Assembly (NCBI GenBank): GCA_002011745.1
Contig: MTOU01000035.1
Span: 1-64,000, forward strand
Source of the DNA: Nitrospirae bacterium JdFR-85
Lineage (GTDB): Bacteria > Nitrospirota > Thermodesulfovibrionia > Thermodesulfovibrionales > JdFR-85
Length of the DNA: 64,000 nucleotides
Reading direction: 5' to 3'
The notes under the pieces are model-generated. The model was not told where the DNA came from and searched no databases. It was given only the letters and a program-made list of their open reading frames with translations. A program made the translations under genes and the position numbers. Below are positions 31,233 to 40,851 of this stretch, in pieces. Position 1 is the first letter of the stretch. Each line of letters opens with the position of its first letter.

Positions 31233-32390
31233 ATGAGGTTAGACTTCTTAAAAGACAGGATAGATGCCCTCAAGAGAGAGCGGCTCCTTAGGGTTGTCAG
31301 AGACAGGGAGTCTCCACAGGGTAGAACTATCAAGATTGCAGGTAGAGAACTGATAAACTTTTCCTCTAATGACTATCTTGGTCTGGCCAATCACCCTTCA
31401 GTTGTGGCTGCAGCAAAGGATGCCCTTGAAAGATATGGTGCAGGCTCTGGGGCATCAAGGCTTCTTTCAGGAGGGACAGAACTTCATAGAGAGCTTGAAG
31501 AGACCCTTGCAGCCTTCAAATCTACAGAGGCTGCTCTGGTATTCAACTCAGGCTATGCAGCCAATACAGGTATGCTTTCAGCTATTGCTGATTCAGATAC
31601 AACCATTTTCAGTGATGAACTGAACCATGCAAGTATAATTGATGGTTGCCGCCTGAGCAGGGCAGAGACAGTGGTGTATCCCCATAGGGATATGGATACC
31701 CTCCATAGGCTTATTAAAAAAAGAAGAAAAAGAGTGCTTATTGTTACTGATACAGTATTCAGCATGGATGGAGATATTGCTCCATTGAAAGATATCTTAG
31801 AGATTGCAGAGGAGTATGATGCCCTTGTCTATATAGATGATGCCCATGGCACAGGGGTTCTTGGAGGAGGCAGAGGTGCTCTTCATCACTTTGGGCTGTC
31901 TCCAGAACCTTTTCTGCTGCAGATGGGCACACTCTCAAAGGCCCTTGGTAGCATGGGTGCCTTTGTGGCTGGTGAAAGGATTGTGGTGGAATGGGCAATC
32001 AATACTGTAAGGTCCTTGATATTCTCAACAGCCCTTCCAGCTCATGTATTAGCAGCCTCTAAGGAGGCGGTGAGGATTGTAATGAATGACACTACACTGG
32101 TTAAGAGACTTTGGAACAATAGAGATATCCTTTATACTGAATTAAAACAACTGGGTCTCGATACAGGAATGTCTCAGACCCCCATAATTCCCATTCTGAT
32201 GAATAGCAATGAAGAGGTCTTGAGACTCTCAGCCTTTCTTTTTGAAAGAGGCATATATGTACCAGCAGTAAGAAGACCTGCGGTGAAACAGCCGAGACTG
32301 AGGATAAGTGTCAGTGCTGTGCATACCAGAGAAGACCTTCTTAGACTGGTTGATGTCCTCAAGGAGGCAAAACAGTGCGGACTGTGTTAA
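31233..32390 (+). CDS. bioF: 8-amino-7-oxononanoate synthase
   Basis: PLP enzyme that joins pimeloyl-thioester and L-alanine in biotin synthesis. FSSNDYLGLANHP and GSGASRLLSGG near the start, the DDAHGTGVLG loop and the PLP lysine in TLSKALGSMGAF are all intact. Its 385 residues are normal. The ribosome binding site AAGGAG abuts the ATG directly, which is unusually close, so initiation may be weak or the start may differ. It overlaps the next gene by 16 bases. Confidence 0.94.
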   Translation: MRLDFLKDRIDALKRERLLRVVRDRESPQGRTIKIAGRELINFSSNDYLGLANHPSVVAAAKDALERYGAGSGASRLLSGGTELHRELEETLAAFKSTEAALVFNSGYAANTGMLSAIADSDTTIFSDELNHASIIDGCRLSRAETVVYPHRDMDTLHRLIKKRRKRVLIVTDTVFSMDGDIAPLKDILEIAEEYDALVYIDDAHGTGVLGGGRGALHHFGLSPEPFLLQMGTLSKALGSMGAFVAGERIVVEWAINTVRSLIFSTALPAHVLAASKEAVRIVMNDTTLVKRLWNNRDILYTELKQLGLDTGMSQTPIIPILMNSNEEVLRLSAFLFERGIYVPAVRRPAVKQPRLRISVSAVHTREDLLRLVDVLKEAKQCGLC

Positions 32391-33076
32391 TAACAGGTGC
32401 CACAGGTGGACTGGGAGAGGTGCTTGTGAGAGTATTTGACAGTGCAGGATACAGCACAGTTGTCCATTATCTGAAGAACAGACAGAAGGCAGAGCAACTT
32501 ACCAAGACACTTAAAAACCCATCCCTCTGTATCAGTGCAGACCTTAAGGATATTAACTCTGTCGAGAAAATGGTGGATGCTATAGGCTCTGAAATGGGAG
32601 GGCTTGATGTTCTTGTAAATAATGCCTCTGTGACCATAGATAAATTACTTCTCAGGTATTCAGAGGCAGAATGGGATGAGGTGATAAATACAAATCTTAA
32701 GGGGACATTTATCATGACAAAGGCAGCACTTCCTATAATAAGGGATGGAGGACATATTGTTAATATATCCTCCTATTCAGGGCTGAAGGGTAGACAGGGA
32801 CAGGCAGCCTATAGTGCATCAAAGGCAGGGATTGTGGGATTGAGCAAATCCCTTGCAAGAGAACTCTCACCAAGAAAAATAAAGGTGAATGTGGTAGTTC
32901 CAGGGTATCTACCCGTGGGTATGGGACAGATGGCCCCTGAGGCAATGAAGAGAGCTATGAAGGAGAGTACCCTTCAGATGCTCGGTAGTGCTGAGGATAC
33001 AGCCAGGTTTGTTCTCTTTCTGGTTAACACAGAAACCATTACAGGACAGGTTTTTGCTATTGACAGCAGATTCTGA
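32375..33076 (+). CDS. Short-chain dehydrogenase/reductase (FabG-like) inside the biotin group
   Basis: A 233-residue NAD(P)-dependent oxidoreductase. The nucleotide motif is TGATGGLGE, followed by NNASVT, the catalytic Ser in NISSYSG and the YxxxK pair in YSASKAG. It most resembles 3-oxoacyl-ACP reductases. The start is GTG with AGGAGG seven bases upstream, inside bioF. Placement between bioF and bioD, with overlap, suggests a part in making the pimeloyl precursor, or a fatty-acid reductase carried along. No bioC or bioH is present here. The function is inferred. Confidence 0.85.
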   Translation: MRTVLITGATGGLGEVLVRVFDSAGYSTVVHYLKNRQKAEQLTKTLKNPSLCISADLKDINSVEKMVDAIGSEMGGLDVLVNNASVTIDKLLLRYSEAEWDEVINTNLKGTFIMTKAALPIIRDGGHIVNISSYSGLKGRQGQAAYSASKAGIVGLSKSLARELSPRKIKVNVVVPGYLPVGMGQMAPEAMKRAMKESTLQMLGSAEDTARFVLFLVNTETITGQVFAIDSRF

Positions 33077-33130
33077 TAACCCCTATTTGCCGGATTGGGT
33101 TATAATGTATATATTTGGAAGGATTCTCTG

Positions 33131-33832
33131 ATGAAGGGTATATTCATAACAGGGACTGACACAGGTGTGGGAAAGACAATCATTGCCTCAGCTATTGTAA
33201 GGGTTCTGAAGGCAAGAGGGATTTCAGTGGCAGTGATGAAGCCTATAGAGAGTGGATGCAGGAGAGAGGGTGATGTTTTGATTCCTTTAGATGGTGTGAT
33301 GCTTAAAGAAATGGCAGAGAATGATATTACTCTCGAGGAGGTTACTCCTTTCAGGTTTGAAAATCCCCTTGCTCCGATGGTTGCATCAGAGATAGAAGGC
33401 ACAGAGGTGGATGAGAGGGTTATATATGATACAATTAAGGAGTTGCAAGAGAAGTATGATTATATAGTTGTAGAAGGAGTGGGAGGCCTTATGGTGCCTG
33501 TGAAGCAGAGGTTAATGATTGTTGATATAGTGAGAGACACAGGGTTGCCACTTCTAATAGTTGCAAGCAATCGCCTCGGGGTTATAAATCATACAGTTCT
33601 TACAGTGGAGGCAGCAAAAAGACGAGGGATAGATATTATAGGGGTTGTACTCAATACCCCTAATCCTTCAAGGGATGATATTTCTTTGGAGACTAATCCT
33701 CTTGTGCTGAGAAGGGTGCTTGAAGTTCCTCTGGTAGGTGTGTTCCCTTTTATAAATAGTATTTCAAAGGAGAATCTTTTAAAAGAGGCGGTTAAGAATC
33801 TCGAGGTTGACAGAATTATACAACTTCAATGA
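33131..33832 (+). CDS. bioD: Dethiobiotin synthetase
   Basis: Closes the ureido ring of dethiobiotin with CO2 and ATP. The P-loop GTDTGVGKT at the start, KPIESGC and the VEGVGGLMVP motif identify BioD. I prefer ATG 33131 (MKGIFITGTD, with GGAAGGA upstream) over the longer frame from 33095; this gives 233 residues. bioA and bioB, needed for the steps around it, are not in the window. Confidence 0.94.
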   Translation: MKGIFITGTDTGVGKTIIASAIVRVLKARGISVAVMKPIESGCRREGDVLIPLDGVMLKEMAENDITLEEVTPFRFENPLAPMVASEIEGTEVDERVIYDTIKELQEKYDYIVVEGVGGLMVPVKQRLMIVDIVRDTGLPLLIVASNRLGVINHTVLTVEAAKRRGIDIIGVVLNTPNPSRDDISLETNPLVLRRVLEVPLVGVFPFINSISKENLLKEAVKNLEVDRIIQLQ

Positions 33833-33848: not shown

Positions 33849-35111
33849 ATGCCCATTTTTGGTGAGATATTCATAAGTGAGATACTAAAGAGGCCCGTGC
33901 TTGATATAAGAGGAGAGGAGCTTGGTACCCTTAAAGACATGATTGTGATAAGGGGGGAGCCTCTTCCAGTGGTGGATTCTCTGATTGTTACAAAGAAGAG
34001 GAAGGATTATAGAATCCCTTGGCAGAGCATAAGTATTTTTAACAGGAGGATAATCGCTTCTACCCTTTCGAGTGAGTCTTTGAAGGAGTATACAGAGACG
34101 GATGAGGACCTCCTTGTTGTAAGAGACATTCTTGATAAACAGATAGTTGATGCTACTGGTGTGAAGGTAGTCAGGGTTAATGATATAAAGCTGGAGGGAT
34201 ATGAAGGATTGGCTGTCCTGGTTGCTATTGATGCAGGTATGAGGGGGATACTTCGCAGACTTGGCATAGAAAAGAGAGGGGTAGAGATATTAAAGATGTT
34301 TAAGGTAGACCTTCCCTATAATCTTATAAGCTGGAATTATATTCAGCCTCTTGAACCAAAACTTAAGAAGATCGCCTTAACAGTGCCGAGACAGATGGTG
34401 GCGAAGCTACATCCTGCTGATATCGCAGACCTCATAAGTTCTGTCTCAAGAATTGAGGGGACAAGCCTTTTTACTGACCTTGATGAAGATACAGCAGCAG
34501 AGACACTCTCAGAATTGAATCCCCATGTGCAGGCGAGTATCATTGAAGAAATGGATACTCCCAAGGCATCACGTATTATATCCAAAATGCCTCCTGATGA
34601 GGCAGCAGACCTGTTGAGTGAGATATCACCTGAGAAGATGAAAGAGATTCTGGAGAGCATTAATAAAGAAGATGCTCAGGATATCCAGGAACTCCTTGAA
34701 CACGAAGAGGATACAGCAGGTGGATTGATGACAAATGAATATATAGCCTATACAGGAGATACTACTGTGAAAGAGGCGATGGAGGCATTCCGGAAAGATG
34801 CCGCGGAGATTGAGACTATATATTATATATATGTAACTGATGAGTGTGAAAAACTAGTGGGAGTTCTTTCTCTTAGAGAGTTATTACTTGCAGACCCGGA
34901 CAAGAGGTTGTCTGAGATAATGGTTACAAATCTGAAGACTGTTGGGCCTGATGATGATGAGTCTGTGGTTGCAGCAGCAATATCAAAATACAATCTTGTG
35001 GCTATTCCAGTGGTTGACAAGGATGGCATTCTACTTGGTATTGTAACTGTTGATGATATTATTGATAGGATTCTCCCTCCAAAAGCGAAACGAAAGCAGA
35101 AAAAGGTTTAA
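33849..35111 (+). CDS. Soluble PRC-barrel / MgtE-N / CBS-pair protein
   Basis: A 420-residue protein without membrane segments. The N-terminal 160 residues look like PRC-barrel domains (LDIRGEELGTLKD, DATGVKVVRVNDI). About 185-285 follow the cytosolic MgtE N-domain (LHPADIADLI, MPPDEAADLL, LLEHEEDTAGGLM). About 285-410 are two CBS domains ending in VDDIIDRILPP. In MgtE channels the N and CBS domains sense cytosolic Mg2+ and gate the pore; here the pore domain is missing. The next gene, a transporter, is on the same strand 33 bases on. The protein probably regulates it. Confidence 0.88.
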   Translation: MPIFGEIFISEILKRPVLDIRGEELGTLKDMIVIRGEPLPVVDSLIVTKKRKDYRIPWQSISIFNRRIIASTLSSESLKEYTETDEDLLVVRDILDKQIVDATGVKVVRVNDIKLEGYEGLAVLVAIDAGMRGILRRLGIEKRGVEILKMFKVDLPYNLISWNYIQPLEPKLKKIALTVPRQMVAKLHPADIADLISSVSRIEGTSLFTDLDEDTAAETLSELNPHVQASIIEEMDTPKASRIISKMPPDEAADLLSEISPEKMKEILESINKEDAQDIQELLEHEEDTAGGLMTNEYIAYTGDTTVKEAMEAFRKDAAEIETIYYIYVTDECEKLVGVLSLRELLLADPDKRLSEIMVTNLKTVGPDDDESVVAAAISKYNLVAIPVVDKDGILLGIVTVDDIIDRILPPKAKRKQKKV

Positions 35112-35144
35112 CTGAGACATACGCTCTAATATCCCTAACCCAAG

Positions 35145-36374
35145 ATGAGAAGGATTTTTGTGAAGATAGGTCTTTTTATGTCAGTCATTGGTCCTGGCAT
35201 CATTACTGCCAATATAGACAACGATGCCAGCGGGATTACTACATACTCTGTAGCAGGAGCGAGGTTTGGGCTGTCTCTGCTGTGGACTTTAATTCCTACT
35301 ACAGTGTCATTGATTGTTGTGCAGGAGATGATAGCCAGGATGGGGGTTGTTACAGGCAAGGGACTCTCAGATCTGATAAGGGAGAACTACGGAGTCAAGG
35401 CAACCTTCTTTATGATGCTCGGTCTGTTTATAGCCAATCTGGGTACCACAGTGGCGAATCTATCTGGCTGGGCAGCCAGTATGGAGATACTCGGTCTGAG
35501 CAAATATGCTATGGTGCCAGCAGGAGCAGTTGCAATATGGCTGCTTGTTACCAAAGGTACATATAGATTTGTGGAGAGGGTATTGCTTATAGCATGTGTG
35601 CTTTACTTCGGGTATGTTCTGGCAGGGATTATGGCAAAACCTGCTTGGTCAGATGTCTTTAAGGCTCTTGTTATACCTGAGTTAAAGAAAGACCCCCAGT
35701 TTATTATGCTTACCATCGCAATCATAGGAACAACAATAACTCCATGGATGCAGTTTTATCTACAGTCATCCATAGCTGAGAAGGGGATCAGGAAGGAAGA
35801 CTACTATCTTACAAAACTCGATGTGATAGTAGGCTGTAGCATTACGGATATCGTTTCATTTTTTATAATTGTCACCTGTGCCACGGTCCTTTTCCCTATG
35901 GGTATAAAAATTACAGACGCCTCAGAGGCAGCAGTAGCACTGAGACCCTTTGCAGGTGAGTTTTCATATCTGTTGTTTGCTGTGAGCCTTGCAAATGCAT
36001 CAATCCTTGGTGCAATTATAGTTCCTCTTGCTACAGCATACTACACCTGTGAGGCAATGGGATGGGAGGCGGGTGTAAACAAGACCTTCAAAGAAGCTCC
36101 TCAGTTCATGTGGATATATACCTCTCTGATAGTTATATCCTCACTGCTTGTATTGATCCCTGGCGCTCCTCTTATCACGCTTATGGTGCTCTCGTCTGTA
36201 CTTAATGGCCTAATTCTTCCTTTTGTGCTCGTTTATGCACTTAGACTCTCAAATAACCCCAAGATAATGGGCAAGTATACAAACAGCAGATTCTTTAATA
36301 TAGTTGCATGGGCAACAGTGGTAACCATAGTGGTACTAACTGTGGCGATGATCCTATTTATCTTTTTGATATGA
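35145..36374 (+). CDS. NRAMP-related divalent metal transporter (possible Mg2+ type)
   Basis: Membrane protein with about eleven hydrophobic segments in 409 residues. The family's TM1 metal motif (usually DPGN) reads NIDNDASG (23-30). In TM6 the usual MPHN reads TPWM (199-202), so the methionine that favours Mn/Fe is replaced by Thr. Such changes are described for NRAMP-related Mg2+ transporters. The upstream MgtE-N/CBS protein strengthens a Mg2+ reading. No ribosome binding site is seen before ATG 35145, and a later in-frame GTG or ATG (35160, 35178) could be the true start. The ion specificity is inferred, not shown. Confidence 0.87.
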   Translation: MRRIFVKIGLFMSVIGPGIITANIDNDASGITTYSVAGARFGLSLLWTLIPTTVSLIVVQEMIARMGVVTGKGLSDLIRENYGVKATFFMMLGLFIANLGTTVANLSGWAASMEILGLSKYAMVPAGAVAIWLLVTKGTYRFVERVLLIACVLYFGYVLAGIMAKPAWSDVFKALVIPELKKDPQFIMLTIAIIGTTITPWMQFYLQSSIAEKGIRKEDYYLTKLDVIVGCSITDIVSFFIIVTCATVLFPMGIKITDASEAAVALRPFAGEFSYLLFAVSLANASILGAIIVPLATAYYTCEAMGWEAGVNKTFKEAPQFMWIYTSLIVISSLLVLIPGAPLITLMVLSSVLNGLILPFVLVYALRLSNNPKIMGKYTNSRFFNIVAWATVVTIVVLTVAMILFIFLI

Positions 36375-36569: not shown

Positions 36570-37031
36570 ATGATACCAATTGTAGAGGCGATACATGTAG
36601 TTTCTGTAGTAATATGGATAGGTGGGGTTGCCTTTGTTACAATGGTGGTCTTTCCGATGATACTGAGGATGGAGAATTCCTTAGAAAAGGTTCTCTTCTT
36701 CCAAGGGGTGGAACACCGCTTCGCAAAGATTGCAAAGGCAATGGTGGCAGTTGCAGGGATAACAGGATTTTGGCTTCTGTATTTGACAGATGAGTGGAGA
36801 ATCCTTTTTACCCTAAGGGGTATAGGTCCTACCTTAATGTTGATTGTCTGGGCTGTATATCTTCTGATTCTACTTTTTGAGGCAAAACTGTTTAAGATAA
36901 TATTTAAAGGAGAGGCACAGCAGGATACCAGTAAAATCTTTTATCGTCTTACCGTATTTCACTGGTTTGTCCTTGGGCTAAGTCTTCTGGCTGTTCTGGT
37001 GGGAGTATGGGCAGGACATGGGGGAATCTAA
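36570..37031 (+). CDS. CopD-like four-helix membrane protein
   Basis: A 153-residue inner-membrane protein with four hydrophobic segments. It has conserved-looking histidines in AIHVVSVVIWIGG, VEHRF, FHWFVLG and AGHGG. The pattern is that of CopD/DUF2269-like proteins, which may handle copper, heme or electrons; histidines in such bundles often bind heme. GGAG precedes ATG at good distance. It overlaps the next gene by 14 bases. No copper genes are nearby, so the name reflects fold resemblance only. Confidence 0.65.
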   Translation: MIPIVEAIHVVSVVIWIGGVAFVTMVVFPMILRMENSLEKVLFFQGVEHRFAKIAKAMVAVAGITGFWLLYLTDEWRILFTLRGIGPTLMLIVWAVYLLILLFEAKLFKIIFKGEAQQDTSKIFYRLTVFHWFVLGLSLLAVLVGVWAGHGGI

Positions 37032-37752
37032 CAGAAATACCAAATACTTTCTTTTTTTTCTCTGTCTCTTTTTTGTCTGTATAGTTTCTTCTACAGAGGC
37101 TGCAATTATTGTCTTTGATGAAGTAGCAGTTTTGGGGAAATCGGTATTCTTTACTGCACAGACAAGAGGTCTGCTTTTTCCAGAAGGCGGAAGAGTGGTT
37201 GAATTTTATGTGAGTGGTAAGAGAATAGGTACTACCCTTAGTGGTGGGGATGGTTTTGCCTTCTTTGAATACAGGCCCATTAAGAAGGGCATTTTTTCGA
37301 TTGAGGCTAAAAGCGGTGATGAGAGCAGCAAAGGAGTGCTTGTCGTTGTAGACAAAAGAAGGAGATTGCTCTTTCTGGAGATTGATGCAATAATTAGAGA
37401 AGTTTTGATTAACAGTGAGAAGGTGAAAGCTGCTGCTGAGAGTCTTAAAGGACTGAGAGGGCATTATACAATACTGTATGTTTCAAGGTTTCCTGCAACA
37501 GGATATGTAAGAGAATGGCTTCAAAAAAAGGGGTTTCCTGTTTCTGCAGTATTAGGATGGAATGGTATTGAGACAGTTGAAGAGTGGAAAGAAAAGGGGC
37601 TCAGGTTATATGCAATTGTAGCATCTGCCAGAGTATGCGAAGAAGTGGCAGAAAGCTTTGAGAAGGCTTTCAGTTTTATGGATACAGACAGATGTGAGAG
37701 ACTTACTGAATGGAGAGAGTTGGAGGATAGACTTGGAGCCATTAAAAAATGA
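37018..37752 (+). CDS. Secreted protein with a possible HAD-like C-terminal half, function unknown
   Basis: A 244-residue protein with a signal peptide (hydrophobic core about 10-24, cleavage near STEAA). Residues about 28-110 look like a beta-sandwich of the kind seen in surface adhesion or polyphosphatase-associated domains. The second half contains ILYVSRFPATGYVREWLQKK, which recalls the motif of lipin/LNS2-type HAD phosphatases, where a threonine-rich loop precedes a WL helix. The catalytic DxDxT of that family is not clearly present. Its start overlaps the CopD-like gene. I do not recognise the family with confidence. Confidence 0.55.
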   Translation: MGESNRNTKYFLFFLCLFFVCIVSSTEAAIIVFDEVAVLGKSVFFTAQTRGLLFPEGGRVVEFYVSGKRIGTTLSGGDGFAFFEYRPIKKGIFSIEAKSGDESSKGVLVVVDKRRRLLFLEIDAIIREVLINSEKVKAAAESLKGLRGHYTILYVSRFPATGYVREWLQKKGFPVSAVLGWNGIETVEEWKEKGLRLYAIVASARVCEEVAESFEKAFSFMDTDRCERLTEWRELEDRLGAIKK

Positions 37753-38880: not shown

Positions 38881-40851
38881 TTGCATTGTCACAGAGAAGA
38901 AAGGGTTGAGTCTGGAATAAGACGAATTGTGCTTGTTGGAAACCCGAATGTGGGAAAGAGTGTTATATTCGGGCTTCTGACAGGCCGTTATGTGGCTGTA
39001 TCCAATTATCCAGGCACTACAGTAGAGATCTCCCAAGGCAATATCGTTCTCAATAACGAGAAGTTTGTTGTTATTGATACTCCAGGGGTTAATAGTCTTG
39101 TGCCTATGAGTGAAGATGAGCGGGTGACAAGAGACATACTCCTTGTAGAAAGGCCCTATGCAGTGATTCAGGTGGCTGACTCCAAGAATCTTAAAAGGAC
39201 TCTGATGATACTCCTCCAGTTGGCTGAGATGGATATACCCATGGTTTTAGATCTAAATATGGAGGACGAGGCAAGGGAAAGAGGTATAGAGATTGACAAG
39301 ACCACTCTTTCAGAACTCACTGGTATAGAGGTTATAGGTACTGTGGCTCCGAGAAGAAAGGGAATAAAGAGATTGAAAGAGGCCCTTTTGAGGCCAAGGG
39401 TTCCCTCAATTAAGGTGAGATACGATGAGAAGATAGAAGAGGCTATAGAGAAGATTGATAGGCTTCTGCCTGAGTCTGGAATTTCTAAAAGGGCGCTGGC
39501 TGTAATGATTCTATCAGGAGATGAGAGTCTAAGGGGATGGCTTAACAAGAACCTACCAGTGGAACGAATTGAAGAGATTGAACGGATAGCTGAAGAATGT
39601 CAGACCCATTTTAGTATATCCATATCTCAGATTATAAATTCTAGACGGCTTGAGATAGTTGATGAAATTGTGAAAAAGGTACAGATCAAAAAGGAGATTT
39701 TAAAAGGAAGAATAAGAGAGGCTCTCGATACAGTAACCTTGCATCCTGTTTTGGGATTGCCAGTGTTGGTATTTGTGCTATTTCTCTTGTATGAGTTTGT
39801 AGGAGTTTTTGGGGCAGGTACACTTGTTGACCTTTTTGAGGGGGTGATATTTGAGAGATATATAAATCCAATGGCTACAAGGGTGATAGAACTCTTTCTG
39901 CCTTCAGGATTCTTTCACGATATGATGATAGGGGAGTATGGAATCATAACAATGGCCCTTACATACTCTATTGCCATAATACTGCCTATAACTGCGACAT
40001 TCTTTATAGCCTTCTCTATTCTTGAAGACAGTGGCTATCTGCCAAGACTTGCAATCTTAAGTAACAGGTTCTTTAATATTATGGGTCTGAATGGCAAGGC
40101 TGTACTGCCGATGGTGTTGGGACTTGGTTGCGGCACGATGGCTGTCATGACCACAAGGATACTGGAGACCAGGCGAGACCGGATAATTGCTACTTTTCTG
40201 CTCGCCCTTGCTATACCCTGTTCAGCACAGCTCGGTGTTATTCTTGGTATGGTTGGCTCGCTTTCTACAAGAGCCACAGTTATTTGGATTGTTACTGTGA
40301 TATTTGTACTTATTGTCTCAGGATTTCTTGCCTCAAAGGTGGTTCCTGGTAAAAAGACCGAATTCTTTCTTGAGATTCCTCCTCTTAGATTACCGAGACT
40401 TAGCAATGTGATACTAAAGACCCTTGGAAGGATTGAATGGTATCTGAAGGAGGCTGTTCCCCTTTTTATCCTTGGTACCCTCATCCTGTTTTTACTTGAT
40501 AGGTTGAGACTGCTTCATCTAATTGAAAAGGCAATGTATCCGTTGGTACACCAGCTCTTGGGGCTTCCTTCCAAGACAGCAGGTTTTTTCCTTATGGGTT
40601 TCTTAAGAAGAGACTATGGAGCAGCAGGGCTATTTAGTATGGCTACACGTGGTGAGCTTACATCTCATCAGATGTTGATCAGTATTATCACGTTGACACT
40701 CTTCGTCCCATGCCTTGCCAGTTTCTTTATGATAATAAAAGAACGAGGATTGAAGGTGGCAATTGTGGTTACATTAGTGGTCTTTTTCCTTGCATTTTTT
40801 GTAGGAGGTATGATGAACTTTATATTAAGAACAATCAATTTAGGGGTTTAA
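38881..40851 (+). CDS. feoB: Ferrous iron transport protein B
   Basis: GTP-dependent Fe2+ importer. The N-terminal G domain has GNPNVGKS (20-27), a switch region with NYPGTTVE, DTPGVNSL (66-73) and NMED in the place of NKxD. The membrane part has the Gate-like GLGCGTMAVM and a later RRDYGAAGLF/VPCLASF segment, with about nine hydrophobic segments. Its 656 residues are of normal size. The start is TTG and the protein begins MHCHRE, a small His/Cys cluster. No feoA is adjacent. The Fur box upstream fits iron repression. Confidence 0.94.
   Translation: MHCHREERVESGIRRIVLVGNPNVGKSVIFGLLTGRYVAVSNYPGTTVEISQGNIVLNNEKFVVIDTPGVNSLVPMSEDERVTRDILLVERPYAVIQVADSKNLKRTLMILLQLAEMDIPMVLDLNMEDEARERGIEIDKTTLSELTGIEVIGTVAPRRKGIKRLKEALLRPRVPSIKVRYDEKIEEAIEKIDRLLPESGISKRALAVMILSGDESLRGWLNKNLPVERIEEIERIAEECQTHFSISISQIINSRRLEIVDEIVKKVQIKKEILKGRIREALDTVTLHPVLGLPVLVFVLFLLYEFVGVFGAGTLVDLFEGVIFERYINPMATRVIELFLPSGFFHDMMIGEYGIITMALTYSIAIILPITATFFIAFSILEDSGYLPRLAILSNRFFNIMGLNGKAVLPMVLGLGCGTMAVMTTRILETRRDRIIATFLLALAIPCSAQLGVILGMVGSLSTRATVIWIVTVIFVLIVSGFLASKVVPGKKTEFFLEIPPLRLPRLSNVILKTLGRIEWYLKEAVPLFILGTLILFLLDRLRLLHLIEKAMYPLVHQLLGLPSKTAGFFLMGFLRRDYGAAGLFSMATRGELTSHQMLISIITLTLFVPCLASFFMIIKERGLKVAIVVTLVVFFLAFFVGGMMNFILRTINLGV

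Follow-up and report, generated by a model that had tools for sequence, protein, structure and literature searches.

In this work we analysed two adjacent genes in the window, a stretch of 64,000 nucleotides from Nitrospirae bacterium JdFR-85 (contig MTOU01000035.1, positions 1–64,000). Gene A (33849..35111) encodes a soluble protein of 420 amino acids, the proposed Mg2+-sensing partner, and gene B (35145..36374) a protein of 409 amino acids assigned to the NRMT branch of SLC11/NRAMP-fold transporters. Both frames lie on the forward strand, to which all positions below refer, exactly where the original prediction had drawn them, 33 nt apart (gap at 35112..35144).

Gene A is a soluble PRC/MgtE_N/CBS protein without the MgtE pore. 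It opens with the PRC-barrel noticed in the original prediction (residues 5–72, 33861..34064; Pfam PF05239, E 1e-9), which is followed by a second, PRC-like module at about residues 88–145 (34110..34283), recognized by its pattern and by the secondary structure of an AF2 model and without a Pfam match; in the model this module begins with a short helix and, in our reading, has a strand order similar to that of the first. MgtE_N spans residues 187–288 (34407..34712; Pfam E 3e-27). Two CBS stretches form a pair at about residues 290–408 (34716..35072, the start being placed by eye), the better one at 355–408 (E 9e-20). The Pfam search found no PF01769 MgtE pore in gene A, in agreement with the claim that this protein has the cytosolic Mg2+-sensing domains of MgtE and no membrane part. 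It matches the MgtE cytosolic domain with an E of 3e-40, scores 197 bits with TIGR00400, below the cut-off of 232.75, and its modelled fold is near that of the MgtE cytosolic domain (2yvy, rmsd 1.7), a match that cannot separate the Mg2+-bound from the free form since the structure library keeps identical sequences once. Gene A thus shares with Thermus thermophilus MgtE (TtMgtE; 2yvx/2zy9) the MgtE_N domain, the CBS pair and the Mg4, Mg6 and Mg7 residues, but it has no PF01769 pore, stops soon after CBS2 and carries two PRC-type modules in front.

The sensor residues compared are mostly conserved in gene A: E59, D91 and D95 of TtMgtE correspond to E218, D250 and D254 in MgtE_N, and D247 and D250 to D403 and D406 in the CBS pair, so that all five are kept. 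When D226 is included, gene A is acidic at five of the six Mg2+-site positions; the exception, the Mg5 residue D226, is N382, and asparagine is also found there in 9 of 12 Nitrospirota MgtEs. At the MgtE ATP site Y170 and R187 are kept, D188 is replaced by E, and N203 and F227 are lost, the ATP-stacking F227 being L383 in gene A. All five Mg2+-site residues are present in 61 of 94 standalone A rows (E/D allowed at two positions). In TtMgtE numbering, the linked acidobacterial A rows lack D250, and two of them also lack both D91 and D247; Geobacteraceae rows that lie behind an M-box lack D250 as well, so the loss of site residues is no clean divider. These counts and the tree retain four duplicate rows (109 different of 113); residue counts omit the distant A' rows, and one row (G151), which spans two contigs, is short of some ten residues where these meet.

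Gene B has the NRAMP fold, as originally predicted: it matches Pfam Nramp (PF01566) with an E of 1e-94 (317.7 bits, cut-off 29.8) and passes the general NCBIfam model Nramp_1 (59.8 bits, cut-off 50), but it does not reach the cut-off of the MntH model (129 bits vs 430). TM1 reads N-I-D-N-D-A-S-G and TM6 reads T-T-I-T-P-W-M, and therefore the position of the canonical Met is occupied by Thr, as had been noticed. It shares PF01566 and the LeuT-type fold with canonical NRAMP/MntH proteins (DraNramp, EcoDMT), but their ion-site motifs, DxxN in TM1 and A/CxxM in TM6, are absent from gene B, which has DASG (D27 to G30, 35223..35234) and TTIT (T196 to T199, 35730..35741) instead. These correspond to the NRMT signature, DxxG in TM1 and TxxA/T in TM6 (PMC8806188). 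The closest solved relative is EleNRMT (7qia, E 8e-109), with 46% identity and a model superposition of Z 51.3 and rmsd 2.3 over 392 residues, compared with an E of only 2e-24 for DraNramp (5kte); the TM6 motif of gene B ends in Thr, that of EleNRMT in Ala. Sequence comparison thus supports the placement of gene B in the NRMT branch, as expected from the original proposal of an Mg2+-type NRAMP relative. Members of this branch are characterized as Mg2+ (and Mn2+) transporters, and EleNRMT carries both ions (PMC8806188). A further trait of the family is that its Mg2+ transport is not coupled to H+.

The A–NRMT pairing and the idea of feedback were already published by Shin et al. (2014; PMC4072509), who found that most nrmT genes have an MgtE-N-like neighbour. 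In fold, DxxG-TxxA/T signature and MgtE-N-like neighbour gene B resembles the NrmT/NRMT proteins (Ca_c0685, Ca_c3329, Acp2977, EleNRMT), and gene A resembles the MgtE-like fragment of that study (e.g. Acp2976), both being soluble, homologous to the cytosolic domain of MgtE and encoded next to an NrmT; PRC modules are not mentioned for this fragment in the portions of that paper on which we rely (PMC4072509). The Clostridium acetobutylicum NrmTs do not need the fragment to import Mg2+, and the Acidobacterium capsulatum transporter fully rescued Mn2+ uptake and rescued Mg2+ uptake only in low millimolar Mg2+, with no further rescue when the fragment was co-expressed (PMC4072509). In comparison with the linked acidobacterial relatives whose sequences were read, gene A of the window keeps Mg2+-site residues that are partly lost there. 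What is new here is the usual co-inheritance of A and NRMT even when they are far apart, the joining of the sensor to a different pore in a few relatives, and the recognition of module 2 as the most conserved part of A.

The adjacency of the two genes recurs in other genomes. In 148 sampled Nitrospirota genomes, A is directly upstream of 47 of the 48 close NRMTs (at least 330 bits, the next class being at 239) and of none of the 14 matches below 160 bits. The 14 include a fragment, in G003, of what is probably a close NRMT. The class at 160–330 bits (n = 10) consists of six matches at 211–239 bits with A' downstream and four at 171–184 bits without A. The Nitrospirota reading covered these genomes plus the remainder of one family; in family f3, A is present beside NRMT in 21/21 NRMT genomes. 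Among 149 Acidobacteriota genomes, where close NRMTs score at least 489 bits (next class 340), A is present in all 31 with a close NRMT, within 10 kb in 3 of them and unlinked in 8, unlinked meaning on another contig (7) or far away on the same one (1), with contig ends unchecked. Conversely, all 41 acidobacterial genomes with A have an NRMT or NRMT-like gene, the distant class B' (314–340 bits) grading continuously into further NRAMP-like proteins (307 bits or less); two genomes with such proteins just under the cut-off, G197 (302 bits) and G283 (292 bits), have no full-length A. Counted over the named NRMT loci, after omission of genomes under two locus numbers and of contig-end fragments, 63 of 80 have A, and 14 of the 17 without a local A carry a close-type A at another place in the genome, a count that excludes G170, which has an NRMT and as sole match a distant A'. 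A was not found in the genomes of the named loci L077 and L090. The pairing of A with NRMT is not due to chance.

Several readings of the exceptional loci were discarded. An unlinked A does not mark an additional local NRMT, since a B-like gene adjoins just 1 of 15 (the A' of L152). Apparent gene fusions were not confirmed in the long-frame rows that were read: in L023/L038 (890 aa B frame) the excess of L038 is a different frame over gene A, and in the acidobacterial L166 the excess length of A is upstream sequence. In gene B no residue tracks linkage, as no column conserved at 90% or more with adjacent A (89 rows) drops to 50% or below in its absence (15 rows).

We consider it probable that gene B is an NRMT-type Mg2+ importer and gene A its dedicated cytosolic regulatory subunit providing Mg2+ feedback. 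Gene B would import Mg2+, and probably Mn2+ too; at high cytosolic concentrations Mg2+ would bind between MgtE_N and CBS of A and compact it as in MgtE, and A, attached to the NRMT by its second PRC-like module, would then slow or shut the transporter, until a drop in Mg2+ loosens A and lets uptake restart. Beyond what was computed (the family of B, the domains and Mg2+-site residues of A, the co-inheritance, and the M-boxes and MgtE-pore fusions described below), we infer the physical binding of A to NRMT, the docking site, the negative sign of the regulation and Mg2+ as the main substrate of this member; feedback gating of NRMT by A is predicted as likely.

The identity of the ion was approached through gene regulation and the other importers. 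Of the 51 named loci scanned, 10 have an M-box riboswitch in front of A or B, among them L122 from the Acidobacteriota. Rfam detected no M-box in the window, and none was detected with stricter filters in the 148 Nitrospirota genomes; M-box control of the window pair is therefore rejected, and the pair differs in this respect from the M-box-controlled NRMT subset. In the genome of the window neither the PF01769 pore nor CorA is matched, and for MgtA as an alternative importer the top P-type ATPase scores 432 bits, under the cut-off of 610.75. The absence of other importers proves little, because 37 of the 148 Nitrospirota genomes lack close NRMT, the distant paralogue B', MgtE and CorA altogether, and CorA is uninformative on replacement, because its frequency is independent of NRMT (21/48 with, 45/100 without). 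The same partnership might serve Mn2+ or a mixture of divalent metals, with B importing mainly Mn2+ and A reporting it, as the rescue pattern of the A. capsulatum NrmT, which is also beside a partial MgtE gene (PMC4072509), and the dual specificity of EleNRMT (PMC8806188) would allow. We nevertheless regard this as unlikely in view of the M-boxes at ten related loci, L122 included, of the unmatched MgtE and CorA in the window genome, and of the five Mg2+-site residues kept in gene A but partly lost in the linked acidobacterial rows.

Relatives in which the sensor has changed pore bear on the action of A. In four genomes of family f3, A is fused to a PF01769 MgtE pore; no Nramp match was found in those genomes, and the fusion sits where a congener has A–NRMT. 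The fusion suggests gating as in MgtE. It argues in this way against A being a positive partner, one that helps in assembly, activation or the handing over of metal, and not a feedback brake. Such a role would fit the persistence of co-occurrence when A and NRMT are unlinked, and that of a metal chaperone was also named by Shin et al. (PMC4072509), but the C. acetobutylicum NrmT is active without the fragment and co-expression of the A. capsulatum pair did not increase rescue (PMC4072509); we give it a slightly smaller chance than Mn2+ tuning.

PRC-like module 2 may be the site at which A docks on the NRMT, because no other part of the A family is as strongly conserved and two of its near-invariant residues are lost in 4/4 fused proteins vs 1/88 partner-bearing A (Fisher value 0.0012, which ignores relatedness). 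AF2 gave a weak docking signal, with a pTM of 0.67 vs 0.58 for a single control pair, a small difference for which the PAE was not seen, and in a second PDB comparison of the model the matches listed all fell to the NRAMP half and gave no solved fold for module 2. This small difference, and the lack of B residues that track A linkage, would suit a protein that never touches NRMT and acts elsewhere in Mg2+ homeostasis, the genes merely sharing regulation. That reading is improbable, given that genomes retain both sensor and pore even if these are unlinked, that the absence of NRMT accompanies fusion of A to another pore at the same place, and that the two module 2 residues are lost in all four fused proteins but in just one of the partner-bearing A. 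A split MgtE, with A as one half and the other half nearby, is rejected, as the genome of the window has no PF01769 match. The original proposal of sensor and pore as separate proteins is partly supported, by the joint occurrence of A and NRMT across phyla and by the fusions of A to MgtE pores, but a divided MgtE is not.

With regulation of NRMT by A as the preferred reading, A might more broadly be a transferable Mg2+-sensing gate for two unrelated pores: it would dock the NRAMP-fold transporter via module 2, and one Nitrospirota lineage would have lost this partner and joined A, at the same position in the chromosome, to an MgtE pore, after which the docking residues decayed. We give this scenario an even chance; if it is true, Mg2+ feedback on MgtE and NRMT would share one sensor, fused or in trans. 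In 2014 Shin et al. did not settle what the MgtE-like fragment next to NRMT does, and the pair that they co-expressed came from the Acidobacteriota (PMC4072509). In the linked acidobacterial relatives read here some of the sensor residues are gone; a pair with more intact sites, such as that of the window, would be the one to test, with D96, R109, N111 and their neighbours in module 2 as residues to mutate. The A–MgtE fusions are a natural pore swap, usable as an internal control; they run on past CBS2 into the plug helix and pore, where gene A ends.

The two neighbouring genes in the window encode an ordinary NRMT-family transporter and its known MgtE-like partner, and both the family of the transporter and its partnership with the soluble protein are well supported. 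Gene A (33849–35111, + strand) is a complete ORF of 420 aa, separated by a gap of 33 nt from gene B (35145–36374, + strand), a complete ORF of 409 aa that encodes the NRAMP-fold transporter. PF01566 spans B at full length (Pfam). Its top solved relative is EleNRMT (7qia, E 8e-109), against E 2e-24 for the canonical D. radiodurans NRAMP, and the AF2 model of B aligns with 7qia over 392 residues (Z 51.3, rmsd 2.3). By the signatures of Ramanadane et al. (2022; PMC8806188), NRMTs carry DxxG and TxxA/T and NRAMPs carry DxxN and A/CxxM; at its ion site B has D27-A-S-G30 (TM1) and T196-T-I-T199 (TM6). The original prediction read NIDNDASG in TM1 and a Thr in place of the TM6 Met; these motifs and the fold match to 7qia show that this reading was right and that B belongs to a named family. 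bioD (dethiobiotin synthase) ends 16 bp before the start of A, so that in JdFR-85 a series of biotin genes (31233–33832; bioD by NCBIfam, bioF-like and fabG-like genes by eye) precedes the pair; in many relatives mtnA instead stands after the A–NRMT pair. For the two proteins encoded 3' of B (36570–37752; 153 and 244 aa), searches of Pfam and NCBIfam (E 0.001) and of PADLOC (E 0.01) found no matching family. A FeoB ferrous iron transporter with a TTG start codon lies at 38881–40851.

The pairing of NRMT with this fragment and the idea of a sensor are already known, and are not novel here given the report of Shin et al. (2014; PMC4072509), which describes an MgtE-N-like gene next to most nrmT genes and proposes either cytoplasmic feedback or a chaperone role for the MgtE-like fragment. 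The study reports that C. acetobutylicum NrmTs rescue a Mg2+-uptake mutant without the fragment, that the A. capsulatum transporter does so only at low millimolar Mg2+, with no added rescue when its fragment is co-expressed, and that this transporter fully rescues a Mn2+-uptake mutant. The later literature at hand, mostly outside subscription papers, yielded nothing more about this fragment, about PRC modules in it or about a fusion.

In 148 Nitrospirota genomes, 47 of the 48 close NRMT genes (at least 330 bits) are preceded by a same-strand A at a distance of no more than 529 nt, the exception being a fragmented genome (G007) with partial matches of A and NRMT on different contigs. Ten Nitrospirota matches score 160–330 bits, six of them with a distant relative of A (A') downstream and four with none, and A is beside 0/14 matches below 160 bits in this phylum. 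The 80 best of 571 named NRMT loci come from many phyla, and A is present at 63 of them, downstream or on the opposite strand in four; of the 17 lacking an adjacent A, 14 have a single standalone close-type A at another place in the genome, G170 has a distant A' only, and L077 and L090, on contigs ending near the gene, belong to genomes in which no A was found. Full-length A is present in 41 of 149 Acidobacteriota genomes, all 41 of which have an NRMT or NRMT-like gene, and conversely all 31 genomes with a close NRMT (at least 489 bits in this set) have A, adjacent in 20, within 10 kb in three and unlinked in eight. Because A and NRMT co-occur even when unlinked, linkage alone does not explain their pairing. 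A second, distant pair has the reversed order, an NRAMP-like gene B' and then A' (L031–L035; L171 1151–3754), found in 6/6 Nitrospirota matches at 211–239 bits and 10/10 Acidobacteriota matches at 314–340 bits; PRC module 2 of A' differs from that of A.

Mg2+ sensing by A is likely. Pfam identifies a PRC barrel (residues 5–72), MgtE_N (187–288) and two CBS stretches to residue 408, and finds no MgtE pore in A. The MgtE cytosolic domain 2yvy matches residues 179–408 (E 3e-40), and by Foldseek the modelled part of A shares the MgtE cytosolic fold (rmsd 1.7, 231 columns). According to PMC5882242, T. thermophilus MgtE (TtMgtE) binds Mg2+ at Mg4 (D91 and D247), Mg5 (D226 and D250), Mg6 (D95) and Mg7 (E59), and mutating any cytosolic Mg2+ site prevents closure. 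At the positions of D91, D247, D226, D250, D95 and E59 the A protein of the window has D250, D403, N382, D406, D254 and E218, respectively. Among 94 standalone A rows, D95 is present in 94, D91 and D247 in 84 each, E59 in 75 (with Asp in 9 more) and D250 in 60 (with Glu in 13 more), and 61 rows retain all five residues if E/D is accepted at 59 and 250. D91 and D247 are both lost in 8/8 rows of the Syntrophaceae clade, and D250 is lost in linked acidobacterial rows and also in Geobacteraceae rows; since the Geobacteraceae proteins lacking D250 sit behind an M-box, loss of this residue alone is no marker of a lost Mg2+ role. The ATP residues of MgtE include F227 and N203 (PMC5529423), and the corresponding residues of A in the window are L383 and V359.

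An M-box was present at 10 of the 51 loci scanned among the 80 named ones, mostly from other phyla, shortly upstream of A in L078, L083, L087, L089, L096, L116 and L122 and shortly upstream of B in L085, L093 and L109. No M-box was found in the 148 Nitrospirota genomes, and no riboswitch in the 64-kb window. Neither an MgtE pore nor a CorA match was found in the JdFR-85 genome (2.33 Mb, 100% complete by tool estimate). Across the 148 genomes, an MgtE pore is found in 2/48 with NRMT versus 53/100 without (Fisher 6e-10, relatedness ignored); as 37 of the 148 genomes have none of NRMT, MgtE pore, CorA and B', absence of an importer is weak evidence.

In genome G142 the A ortholog is extended by an entire MgtE pore (positions 1–125 of the 125 in PF01769), and NRMT has no match in that genome. 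In its family (31 genomes), NRMT is present in 21, with A beside it in 21/21, and no A was found in six. A is joined to an MgtE pore in G142, G151, G152 and G160 (97, 92, 80 and 89% complete), the G151 fusion being read from two pieces on two contigs, and these four genomes have no NRAMP match at E 1e-5. The fused gene is directly before mtnA in 4/4 genomes, and at that place G159, of the same genus as G142, has the order A, NRMT, mtnA. The four fused proteins form one clade (99/98) within the A family, and in a tree of the MgtE_N–CBS region the G142 protein falls within A, apart from MgtE, of which 13 true rows form one group (98/96). The shared mtnA locus, the single clade within A and the pairwise identity of the four pores (62–82%) indicate that a single event put an MgtE pore in place of NRMT and kept the same sensor.

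Mechanistically, the most likely reading is that A feeds Mg2+ status back to NRMT and docks on the transporter via its second PRC-like module; we infer both the binding of A to NRMT and the direction of control. This module (residues 88–145), the most conserved stretch of A, has a PRC-like pattern and holds 10 of the 22 columns with conservation of 97% or more across 88 partner-bearing A proteins. Each of the four fused proteins is changed at 2/10 of these columns (D96N and N111K; R109K and G133W, common to two; Q98R and R109T) and unchanged at those of the remaining 12 that it covers. The 88 partner-bearing proteins differ at none of the ten columns in 80 cases, at one in 7 and at two in 1; among 14 unlinked close-type A proteins the figures are none in 10 and one in 4, and distant A', whose partner is a different NRAMP-like protein, differs at 5/10. 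The changes in the fused proteins, which represent one fusion event on long branches, fit the loss of a partner-binding surface. Modelled as one chain (AF2), A and B gave a pTM of 0.67 (pLDDT 84.9), compared with 0.58 (pLDDT 86.7) for NRMT and its other neighbour mtnA (L005). With a single control of other length and alignment, 18/101 paired rows and no PAE, this difference weakly suggests some placed A–B contact.

In G132 (L037 4406–5688), the A gene at the mtnA locus is disrupted and reads as two frames, and no NRMT or pore adjoins it; in G130 (L021) NRMT is broken by one in-frame TAG, either an artefact of assembly or a genuine lesion. One unlinked acidobacterial A (L157 241–1509) stands behind a membrane protein that is MgtC/DUF4010-like by eye. 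Finally, A of G107 (L046 3246–4509) is split into overlapping PRC-only and MgtE_N–CBS frames, which resembles the split reported for C. acetobutylicum.
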